Origin: Deltaproteobacteria bacterium
Lineage (GTDB): Bacteria; Myxococcota_A; UBA9160; UBA4427
Direction of reading: 5' to 3'
DNA: 64,000 nt
Assembly (NCBI GenBank): GCA_002719955.1
Contig: PBFW01000053.1
Coordinates: 1-64,000 of the forward strand
Part shown: positions 30,416 through 34,873 of the stretch, piece after piece
Numbering within the stretch: position 1 is the stretch's first letter
How the letters are laid out: each line of letters begins with the position of its first letter
Translations under genes and position numbers: made by a program
The notes under the pieces: generated by a model
Told to the model about the DNA's origin: nothing
Seen by the model: the letters and a program-made list of their open reading frames with translations, nothing else
Databases searched by the model: none

Positions 30416-30787
30416 ATGAGTTCGCTCGAGGTCGCGGCCAAGGAGCCCGAGGGTCGATCTCTCCGGCTCTGGCGGGTCGTTCTCTCTCTCGCGGAGCCGG
30501 CGGGGGCCCTTCGCGACCAGCCGTCCCACCCCGGTCTGTCCGAGAACCTCGTTTTCGAATTCGACGAGGCCTATACGGCCTTCGTCGATCGCTTCAGCAC
30601 GCTGCCGAGTGAGGCGCAGATGCTCGCGCTCCAGGCCCTTGACACGAAAGTCGCGGCTATGGTGGGCGCGAAGGATGCGGATTTGTGGACGCAGAGGGCG
30701 CGCCGGGAAGATCCGAATTGGGACGATGTGCGATCCCTGGCGACGAGGATTCTCGTCGAATTCGGCTGGCCGACGATGCACGCATGA
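30416..30787 (+). CDS. Hypothetical protein
   Basis: 123 aa: ENLVFEFDEAYTAFVDRFSTLPSEAQMLALQALDTKVAAMVGAKDADLWTQRARREDPNWDDVRSLATRILVEFGWPTMHA; no recognised family. Confidence 0.45.
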   Translation: MSSLEVAAKEPEGRSLRLWRVVLSLAEPAGALRDQPSHPGLSENLVFEFDEAYTAFVDRFSTLPSEAQMLALQALDTKVAAMVGAKDADLWTQRARREDPNWDDVRSLATRILVEFGWPTMHA

Positions 30788-31385: not shown

Positions 31386-32195
31386 CTAGCGTTTTTCGTC
31401 CAGCGCTTCGAGAATCATCAATCCATCGTGCAGAGCGCCTGCGTCATGGGTACGGAGGTATTCAGCCCCGGCACGGGCCGCGTGGAGTTCCGCGGCGAGT
31501 GTGGCTGCACCGATTTCATCCACCCCCCGTCCGGTAATCGCGCGAAGGAAGGACTTGCGCGAGACGGAGATGAACACGGGGCGGCCGAAGCGCGCACGCA
31601 GCTTGGGGATGTGTTGAAGGACCGCGACCGACGCTGCGGGGTCGCTGCCCAGGAAGAATCCCATCCCCGGGTCGATGATGAGTCGCTCTTCGGCGACGCC
31701 GGCGAGAACGAGCTCGTTGAGTCTCGCGTCGAAGAATCGTTGGATCGATCCGAGGACCTCCTCAGGAGAGGCCTCGGTGCGCACGGCGCGTTCCCGCTCG
31801 AGCAATGAGTGCACGACGACGAGGTCGACCTCGGCCGAGGCGAGGCGGGCCTGTGTTTCCGGTTCGGGGAAGCCCCGGATGTCGTTCAGCAGGGCCACAC
31901 CGGCTTCGAGCGACCAGGCCAGGACTTCGGGATCCGTCGCATCGACGGAGAGGGGAAGAGACCCGCTCCGGAGCGCGTCCACGACGGGCGCGAGTCGCTC
32001 GATCTGAAGGGCTGCGGAGACGGGTGTCGCGTCGGGGTTGCTCGAGGCTGGTCCGAGTTCGAGGATATCCGCCCCGCTCTCGGTGAGGGCGCGGGCATGC
32101 TGGATGGCCGCTGTCGGGGCTAGGTAGCGACCTCCGTCCGAGAATGAATCCTCGGTGATATTCACTACCGCTACGACCTTCGGGGCGACGCTCAT
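31386..32195 (-). CDS. folP: Dihydropteroate synthase, Sul-like
   Basis: VVNITEDSFSDGGRYLAPTAAI, ELGPASSNPDATPVS, LNDIRGFPEP, DPGMGFFLGSDPAASV, ISVSRKSFLRAITGRGVDEIGAATLAAELHA. Confidence 0.93.
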   Translation of the reverse strand: MSVAPKVVAVVNITEDSFSDGGRYLAPTAAIQHARALTESGADILELGPASSNPDATPVSAALQIERLAPVVDALRSGSLPLSVDATDPEVLAWSLEAGVALLNDIRGFPEPETQARLASAEVDLVVVHSLLERERAVRTEASPEEVLGSIQRFFDARLNELVLAGVAEERLIIDPGMGFFLGSDPAASVAVLQHIPKLRARFGRPVFISVSRKSFLRAITGRGVDEIGAATLAAELHAARAGAEYLRTHDAGALHDGLMILEALDEKR

Positions 32196-32563
32196 CTCGG
32201 ATTTCTAGCACGCCCCTCTCGACCCTGTGGTCGAACGTCTCGTCGAGGGCCTCGTGCCGGAGGTGAGCAGGGCTCGTTCGAACGCGTTAAGTGGGTCGCC
32301 GCGCGCTTTGGATGGCACATGGGGTGGTGCAGCAAATTGTATCAGGGCCCCCTTGCGGAGCGTTCGGGGCGGTGACTCCGAATTTTACATCGCTTTTACG
32401 TAGCTGCCCTGTTCGATCGTTTTCCGAGCCGACCGATTCAGCTACATCTGCGTTCGCGTCCTGTCTTGATCACGAAGAGATCGGTCGATTCGACAGATTT
32501 CGAACAGTTCGTTCGAGCCTCTGCTTCATCAACCGATGCCCCCGCGAAAGATGATTGAAATCC

Positions 32564-33457
32564 ATGAACGCTGCGATCGACCTCGATAACCGCGTCTCTG
32601 CCGACTCTGCGCCCGCTGTCGACCCGGCAGTCGAGGTCTCTCTCGAATCGAAGGGAGTCAAAGCCAAGAAAGGCTCGGTTCTCCGATACCGCGCCGATCG
32701 TCGCTCGGTCTCGTTCGTGTTGGGGATGTTTGCGTTGCATGCGCTCGCCTTCTTTCTCGCTCCGCCTTGGCTGGCTGCGATCTGCCTCGTCCCGCTGGCG
32801 ATCGGAAGCATGTTCATTGCAGCGATCAATCATCACCATCAGCATTTCAATACGTTCCGCTCGCCGTGGTTGAATCGGATCTACGAACTAGTCCTGGCGT
32901 TACAGACCGGCATCAGTCCTTTCGGTTGGGTGCTGCACCACAACCTCGGTCACCATCGGAATTATCTCAACCAGCCCCCTCATCCGGAGCCCGATGAGTC
33001 GAACTGGACTCGCCCGGATGGTTCTCAGATGGGCCGGGTCGAATACACGATCGATCTCATCTTGAACCATCAGCTCGACATCTTTCGAGTCGGATGGAAA
33101 TATCCGAAATTCCTCCGGGCCTTCCTGCTGATGAAGATTCCGCTCTACGTGATCATCGCAGTCGCGCTCTACATCAATCCCGTGAATGCCTTCCTGGTAC
33201 TGCTGATTCCTTCGTTCATCGCGCTCTGCCACACGTCCTGGGCGACCTACGAACACCATGCCGGCCACTATCCGACGGATCATTACGATGCGAGCATGAA
33301 TCGGAAGAATGCCATCTTCAATTTCCTGACCTGCAACCTGGGCTTGCACACCGCACACCATCTGCGCCCGGGGGTCCACTGGTCGCTTCTCCCGAAGCTC
33401 CACGAAGAGATCGAGAACAGGATTCCACCGGAGATGATTCTGACTACCTTCTGGTAG
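32564..33457 (+). CDS. Membrane fatty acid desaturase family protein
   Basis: Histidine boxes NHHHQHFN, HHNLGHHRNY, HTAHHLRPGVHW; multiple TM segments. Confidence 0.9.
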   Translation: MNAAIDLDNRVSADSAPAVDPAVEVSLESKGVKAKKGSVLRYRADRRSVSFVLGMFALHALAFFLAPPWLAAICLVPLAIGSMFIAAINHHHQHFNTFRSPWLNRIYELVLALQTGISPFGWVLHHNLGHHRNYLNQPPHPEPDESNWTRPDGSQMGRVEYTIDLILNHQLDIFRVGWKYPKFLRAFLLMKIPLYVIIAVALYINPVNAFLVLLIPSFIALCHTSWATYEHHAGHYPTDHYDASMNRKNAIFNFLTCNLGLHTAHHLRPGVHWSLLPKLHEEIENRIPPEMILTTFW

Positions 33458-34873
33458 ATGACCGAATCCACTTTGCCCACGAATGTGCGATCAGGCTTCG
33501 CACGTGTGCTCCACGAACTGACCCAGCGCGATCATACGCAGGGGCGGCTGCTCGTGTCGATCCTCGTGCTGGCCGCGCCTGCCGTCGTCTCCTCGTCGGG
33601 CATGGCGCTCTTCCAACTCTTCGATCTGCGTTTCCTCGGGCAGATCAGCGGTGAAGCGGTGGCTGCGGCCGGCGCGACGAATCAGACCCTGCGGCAGGTT
33701 TTCCAGGTTTCCGCGTTTGGACTCTCGATTGGGATCCAGATGATGATCGCATTCGCGGTGGGGCGGTCACGACTCGAGGAGGCCGAACACGTCGCAGGCC
33801 AGAGTTTTCTCATCACCGGTCTCCTCGCCCTGCTCGCGATCGTGACGGTCGGACTCTTTCCCAAGTTCTTCGTCTCGCTGATCGTGAATGATGCAGCCGT
33901 TCCCATGGCCGAGACCTACGCGCGCATCACTTTCCTCTTCTTCGCCTTCAATATGTTCGCCCAGGCGTCCAATGGCATTCTGGTCGGTTCGGGGGACGCG
34001 ACGACACCGATGTTGATCGGTTTGGCACAGGTCCCCGTCATCATCTTCTTCGAGTGGGCATTGGCATTCGGGAAATTCGGGATGCCCGAGTTGGGCGTCG
34101 CCGGGATCGCCTATGGAACGGCGATCGGCGGTGGATTTTCCTTTGTCCTCGCGATGTGGGCGCTCTTCAGCGGGCGCAGCCGTGTGCATCTGCGTGCTCG
34201 CCACTTACTACCTGATGGGCCCACCCTCGCCCGGATCGTGGGAACCTCGTGGCAGCCCGCGCTCCAGATGGTCGCACGCTCGGCGATGATCATGGTCTTC
34301 ATGTTGCTGGCCGGGCGACTCGGCAGCCACGTGCAGGCGGCGTACACGATCGGGCTGCGGATCGAGATGATTGCGGTCATGATCGCGTTCCCGATTGCGA
34401 ACGGCTGCGCGACGCTCGTGGGGCAAAATCTCGGGGCGGGCGATCCGGATCGAGCCTGGCGGGCGGTTTGGGCGGCAGCCGCGGTCGAGGTGGCGATTCT
34501 GTGGCCGGGCGCTGTGCTGCTCTATTTCTTCCGGGACGCCGCGGTCGCGATCTTCACCAGCGACGCGCAGGTCGCGGCGGAGGCGAGTGAATATCTCCGC
34601 TATGTCTCGTTCATCCTCACCTTCTGGGGAGTCTATTTCGTCGCGTTCCGAACGCTTCAGGCCGCAGGGGACATGATTACGCCGATGATGATCTCACTCG
34701 TGTTGGCGATCTGTCTCGGTACGCCACTCGCGATCTATCTGTCCGGTCGTCCAGAATATGGGTCATCGGGGATGTGGATCGCGAACGCGACCTACTCGGT
34801 CGCGAATGCGCTCTTGATGCTGGGATGGCTCTTTAGGGGCCGCTGGGCGCGCCGAGCCGTAGCGGATCGTTGA
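33458..34873 (+). CDS. MATE family efflux transporter
   Basis: LAAPAVVSSSGMALFQLFDLRFLGQISGEAVAAAGATNQ...; NGCATLVGQNLGAGDPDRAWRAV. ATG directly follows the desaturase stop. Confidence 0.9.
   Translation: MTESTLPTNVRSGFARVLHELTQRDHTQGRLLVSILVLAAPAVVSSSGMALFQLFDLRFLGQISGEAVAAAGATNQTLRQVFQVSAFGLSIGIQMMIAFAVGRSRLEEAEHVAGQSFLITGLLALLAIVTVGLFPKFFVSLIVNDAAVPMAETYARITFLFFAFNMFAQASNGILVGSGDATTPMLIGLAQVPVIIFFEWALAFGKFGMPELGVAGIAYGTAIGGGFSFVLAMWALFSGRSRVHLRARHLLPDGPTLARIVGTSWQPALQMVARSAMIMVFMLLAGRLGSHVQAAYTIGLRIEMIAVMIAFPIANGCATLVGQNLGAGDPDRAWRAVWAAAAVEVAILWPGAVLLYFFRDAAVAIFTSDAQVAAEASEYLRYVSFILTFWGVYFVAFRTLQAAGDMITPMMISLVLAICLGTPLAIYLSGRPEYGSSGMWIANATYSVANALLMLGWLFRGRWARRAVADR

Follow-up and report, generated by a model that had tools for sequence, protein, structure and literature searches.

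A Myxococcota genus has a chromosomal Sul-type dihydropteroate synthase as its only full DHPS match and lacks folP in the usual operon

We analyzed a 64,000-nt stretch of DNA (contig PBFW01000053.1 of assembly GCA_002719955.1, hereafter the window) from a bacterium of the phylum Myxococcota, focusing on a minus-strand gene that starts with ATG, ends with TAG and lies between plus-strand neighbors (Table 1). Its product contains a single Pfam domain, Pterin_bind (195.8 bits), and passes the dihydropteroate synthase (DHPS) equivalog model TIGR01496 with 229.9 bits against a cut-off of 162.6. In a 47-row alignment that includes E. coli FolP, the protein keeps the residues that are invariant across Sul-type and ordinary DHPS, and by analogy with published enzymes it would catalyze the DHPS reaction.

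Table 1. Positions of the features discussed, in window coordinates unless another locus is named.
Feature	Position	Strand	Remarks
Small hypothetical gene	30416..30787	+	No Pfam match; homologues in L004-L008, L090 and L092
Sul-type dihydropteroate synthase gene (FolP with Sul motif)	31386..32195	-	269 aa; monocistronic between plus-strand neighbors
Codons M178-G179-F180-F181-L182, Sul-type loop	31650..31664	-	From alignment; F180 is the counterpart of Sul2 Phe179, the sulfonamide-discriminating residue
Fatty-acid desaturase gene	32555..33457	+	Divergent neighbor; conserved in all genus relatives with enough flank
MATE-family transporter gene	33458..34873	+	Adjoins the desaturase gene in the window; also in L006; less widely conserved
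Divergent DHPS-like gene and divergently encoded PTPS gene (PTPS-III motif)	L003:1387-2277 and 2244-2759 (G000:C56)		
1303-bp block	L035:5815-7117, L037:5814-7117, L038:5815-7117, L039:5815-7117, L041:3163-4465, L067:5815-7118		

The window protein most closely resembles the sulfonamide-resistance enzymes Sul1-3. Its best raw NCBIfam scores are to Sul2 (302 bits), Sul3 (262) and Sul1 (230), although it stays below the respective curated cut-offs of 575, 475 and 600 bits. Against solved structures, phmmer ranks Sul2 (285.9 bits), Sul3 (256) and Sul1 (226.5) above ordinary DHPS (at most 154). The E-value of 2.7e-84 for Sul2, compared with 4.9e-44 for the best ordinary DHPS, argues that this likeness is not due to chance. 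A sequence-only reading of the window had described the gene as a DHPS with the Sul1/Sul2 signature, quoting segments nearly the same as those of the mobile enzymes. All of these segments are present, and the description of near-sameness holds for the motifs but not for the protein as a whole, which is 54% identical to Sul2, 50% to Sul3, 46% to Sul1 and 32% to E. coli FolP.

We then considered the loop after the conserved DPG. Aligned with Sul1-3, E. coli FolP and about 100 relatives, the window protein has DPGMGFFLG opposite the DPGFGF--GK of E. coli FolP, which agrees with the two-residue-longer loop proposed in the sequence-only reading. The two extra residues form a Phe-containing insertion as in Sul1-3, and M178, F180 and L182 align with Sul2 M177, F179 and L181. 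An AlphaFold2 model built from 46 sequences (numbered without the first Met; mean pLDDT 90.5, pTM 0.90) predicts a four-residue helix over G179-L182 (GFFL), corresponding to the lengthened alpha-6 helix. The model is poor at protein residues 17-22 and 134-139 and says nothing about those loops. When it was compared with Sul structures, as had been suggested from the sequence, its 15 best PDB matches were all Sul1, Sul2 or Sul3 chains (TM 0.86-0.95), ahead of any ordinary DHPS. Together, motif, profile, predicted fold and phylogeny (below) support the assignment of the window gene product as a true Sul-type DHPS.

The surroundings of the gene are those of an ordinary chromosome, as the initial reading had it, with the hypothetical gene on one side and the desaturase-MATE pair on the other. 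We found no transposase, integrase or other folate gene among the approximately 35 larger ORFs scanned in the window (ORFs below about 150 aa were scanned only in part). Across the genus, the Sul-type gene lies between the small hypothetical gene and the desaturase gene wherever the flanks allow this to be seen. The GC content is 0.657 for the gene and 0.624 for the window; neither this nor the neighbors, conserved as they are across the genus, support a recent arrival.

We surveyed the distribution of Sul-type DHPS in related genomes, most of which are draft MAGs (the window's own genome is 94% complete and 8.6% contaminated). When 80 genomes of the order were scored with the Sul2 profile, 15 reached 252-303 bits and the rest at most 144. 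The 15 comprise all nine genomes of the genus, all four of genus g2, the single genome of g4, and one genome from another family (G017). In all nine genomes of the genus, the Sul-type protein is the only full DHPS match, and none of the 80 genomes carries both a Sul-type and an ordinary FolP. The search for a second folP in the window's own genome, also suggested at the outset, returned no ordinary one: its three Pterin_bind proteins are MetH, the window gene product and a divergent DHPS-like protein. Across the phylum, 23 of 379 Myxococcota genomes carry a Sul-type DHPS (at least 249 bits, the best ordinary protein reaching 171), again as the only full DHPS match. Full-length Sul-type proteins fetched outside the order carry DPGMGFFL, with DPGMGLFL in G348 (the G352 sequence is a fragment); the highest-scoring ordinary DHPS fetched outside the order lack DPGMGFFL.

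In ordinary relatives, folP occupies a slot flanked by ftsH and cdaA, and glmM lies downstream. By contrast, ftsH is directly followed by cdaA, with folP missing, in all 12 Sul-type genomes of the family for which the cdaA locus was retrieved. Three other families contribute a further seven Sul-type genomes, all with the slot empty; the five ordinary genomes checked alongside these keep folP. Overall, folP is absent from the slot in 19/19 Sul-type genomes and present there in 20/20 ordinary ones; these counts exclude G045, in which only a fragment is left at a contig edge, and G017, for which the search retrieved only the other DAC gene. Ordinary relatives and E. coli (ftsH-folP-glmM) share this operon position, which makes the loss of folP the derived condition. 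What the sequence-only reading had missed is thus that the Sul-type gene is the sole full DHPS of its lineage and that folP has disappeared from its usual operon slot.

We looked for DHPS, FolK, FolC, FolB and PTPS in the genus to place the enzyme within folate synthesis. FolK and FolC are each found in 9/9 genomes, so the pathway needs a DHPS. FolB was found in 0/9. The PTPS motif ExxHGH, a signature of the FolB-bypassing PTPS-III (PMC5041015), occurs as ERLHGH in all nine PTPS proteins found, which come from eight of the nine genomes. The pathway therefore probably runs from GTP through dihydroneopterin triphosphate, PTPS-III, FolK and the Sul-type DHPS to FolC. The window's own genome alone also carries a second PTPS gene (L188, G000:C59:15777-16229) with the motif AERLHGH, which may be contamination, estimated at 8.6% for this genome, or a paralogue.

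A tree calculated without the loop columns groups all Sul-type proteins in one clade (100/100), with the window protein inside; the phylogeny called for earlier thus does not place it deep within ordinary FolP, and the insertion is present. The protein belongs to a branch of ten rows composed only of Myxococcota (100/96), with the MAG PW6 (77% identity) as its sister. Within the family, a single origin of Sul-type DHPS is not rejected (AU p 0.33; flanking-gene tree p 0.25). In an extended tree, the starred branches require no fewer than two changes between the Myxococcota rows and the rest. Holding Sul1-3 as a single clade is rejected (AU p about 1e-144). Sul-type DHPS also occur in Streptomyces, Streptacidiphilus and Kribbella (L014, L016, L020, L027, L028, L052).

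We favor the reading, at a probability of roughly 0.83, that the window gene encodes a housekeeping and probably sulfonamide-insensitive DHPS, which displaced the ancestral folP long ago. This enzyme would condense 6-hydroxymethyl-7,8-dihydropterin pyrophosphate with pABA in a Sul-type active site. At the pocket for pABA, the alpha-6 helix would be lengthened by the two-residue Phe insertion, leaving enough room for pABA while Phe180 would collide with the sulfonamide group that sulfa drugs carry. A Sul-type gene would have taken over in ancestors of the genus, and perhaps more than once in the phylum, and the ordinary folP would have been lost from ftsH-folP-cdaA-glmM, the order of gain and loss being one that we infer. 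In the published Sul enzymes, the loop Phe is needed for resistance, and its replacement by Gly abolishes resistance, letting the drug bind again while pABA kinetics hardly change (PMC10328974). Furthermore, E. coli FolP placed under selection acquires a Phe-Gly insertion that extends alpha-6 from two to four residues (PMC10328974). Insensitivity of the window enzyme would be the natural prediction from this mechanism, and bacteria of this lineage are probably naturally resistant to sulfa drugs.

Several other readings can be weighed against this one. The window gene might be an acquired, extra resistance gene, with the housekeeping role filled by the divergent DHPS-like paralogue next to the PTPS gene. 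That protein matches Pterin_bind (89 bits), keeps several DHPS motifs and could in principle carry DHPS activity; it is present in seven of the nine genomes, and in these its gene has a PTPS-III-motif gene as partner on the same contig. However, it misses the DHPS equivalog cut-off (99 versus 162.6) and has DPNLGI in place of DPGxGF. Genome G058 carries the Sul-type gene with no match to the paralogue found, weak matches to the paralogue coexist with ordinary FolP in other genera (G041, G020), and genomes without a Sul-type gene have an ordinary folP in the operon. We regard this assignment of roles as decidedly improbable. Less probable still, to the point of being very hard to sustain, is that the gene is a close relative of the direct sul1/sul2 progenitor, with Myxococcota as the donor. 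Sul2 is indeed the best PDB sequence match of the window protein, and the motif segments are nearly identical to those of Sul1 and Sul2. Yet identity to Sul2 is only 54%, compared with 70% for the FolP of Parvibaculum sedimenti, which is the sister of Sul2 in our tree (100/94), in agreement with the published Rhodobiaceae origin of sul2. Sul3 pairs with a Prevotellaceae MAG (69% identity, 100/97), apart from the Leptospiraceae rows. Sul1 has no resolved place in the tree, though its nearest rows are Alphaproteobacteria and Actinomycetota. Since its branch holds only Myxococcota while Sul2 and Sul3 pair with other phyla, the window gene is related to the mobile genes as a cousin rather than a parent. 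Direct ancestry of sul2 and sul3 is ruled out by tree and identity, and the earlier suggestion of kinship with the reservoir that gave rise to the mobile sul genes finds no support in a branch lying away from Sul1, Sul2 and Sul3.

A further alternative keeps the housekeeping role and drops the resistance: the loop might fail to block the drug, leaving the enzyme sulfa-sensitive despite its motif. The motif is widespread in bacteria without known sulfonamide exposure, and Venkatesan et al., who found it in hundreds of DHPS entries, called the significance of such natural variants unclear (PMC10328974). Against this, all three resistance-linked residues (M, F and L) are present in the window protein. 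Moreover, Sul-motif FolP from Rhodobiaceae and Leptospiraceae confer sulfamethoxazole resistance in E. coli and motif-less FolP do not; distant motif-bearing FolP gave MICs of at least 512 mg/L, against 8 mg/L in E. coli (PMC6335563). We therefore consider a sensitive enzyme unlikely, if less so than the two readings above.

The displacement by a putatively insensitive housekeeping DHPS touches on the open question of why resistant DHPS predated sulfonamides. Sulfonamides are synthetic drugs. It is conceivable, though doubtful, that a clean exchange of the operon folP for a Sul-type DHPS was repeated and ancient, in Myxococcota and other phyla, and driven by natural DHPS inhibitors or pABA mimics encountered by bacteria of soil and water. 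If so, the Sul loop would be an old defense trait rather than a chance pre-adaptation to a synthetic drug. In Myxococcota, a lineage without any clinical history can rely on a Sul-type enzyme as its sole DHPS over long evolutionary spans, and matched genomes with empty and filled slots allow the cost and benefit of the loop to be studied. These findings also call for caution with metagenomic data, as "sul-like" matches below curated cut-offs can be ordinary housekeeping genes.

Sul-type genes also appear on mobile-looking DNA in our data. A 1303-bp block recurs at 98.7-100% identity in six genomes of Bacteroidota/Ignavibacteriota (Paenimyroides, a "Chlorobi" MAG, and Flavobacteriales, Bacteroidetes and Chitinophagales MAGs), its boundaries being fixed and its surroundings different. 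It carries an unnamed Sul-type gene that is 60% identical to Sul3 and below the Sul3 cut-off. GTTGGGC stands at its start and the complementary GCCCAAC near its 3′ end, as in integron cassettes; these core boxes are complementary, with an attC-like fold not significant by energy alone (z -1.39). The block looks like an integron gene cassette with a mobile Sul-type DHPS. The Paenimyroides aquimaris copy has Tet(X), AadS and Erm(F) genes as neighbors, together with an integron-type integrase. PLSDB plasmids contain no near-identical copy. A second, related Sul-type protein is identical in Lewinella, a Bacteroidia MAG and, on two contigs, Phaeodactylibacter xiamenensis (L042, L043, L044:2233-3045, L045); the L044 copy, from Phaeodactylibacter, adjoins CatB, EreD and Tet(X) genes. 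The Prevotellaceae MAG gene paired with Sul3 (L049:6001-6777) is the closest Sul3 relative seen outside plasmids and closer than any Leptospiraceae row, a pairing that questions the published Leptospiraceae origin of sul3.

Among known systems, Sul4 resembles the window protein in being DHPS-derived and is a resistance enzyme, but it lacks the two-residue insertion (PMC6335563). Kinship with it is ruled out by a score of 77.1 bits against the Sul4 cut-off of 600. Mobile sul4 modules reported in Myxococcota MAGs (PMC12772301) are of a different type from the window gene. The ordinary FolP of the same Myxococcota family (G044, G043, G040) and of E. coli belong to the same reaction family and share the catalytic residues; they differ in lacking the insertion and in their identity of approximately 31-40% to the window protein. 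The genes of the ordinary FolP in the family sit in the ftsH-folP-cdaA-glmM operon, and the window gene lies elsewhere. Mobile Sul2 (7S2J/7S2K), Sul3 and Sul1 share the loop, fold and motifs and are the best sequence and fold matches. By contrast with these, the window protein is 46-54% identical and below every Sul cut-off, and its gene is chromosomal, among neighbors conserved across the genus, rather than in an integron, ISCR or plasmid context.

The closest parallel is the chromosomal Sul-motif FolP described in Rhodobiaceae and Leptospiraceae by Sanchez-Osuna et al. in 2019 (PMC6335563), a main text in which a term search returned no mention of Myxococc- or Deltaproteobacteria. Our literature search, with most subscription journals outside its reach, found no paper on folP replacement in Myxococcota. 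Chromosomal Sul-type FolP as such were thus already published; what is new here is their distribution in Myxococcota as the sole full DHPS match, with the operon folP missing, which widens the known reservoir beyond these two families. Like the window protein, the Rhodobiaceae and Leptospiraceae enzymes carry the two-residue Phe insertion, are chromosomal with no mobile element, and fall in the same clade. They come from other phyla, the window protein lying in its own Myxococcota branch with 53% identity to the Parvibaculum sedimenti protein, and the Myxococcota case differs further in the displacement of the operon folP, shown by the empty slot.
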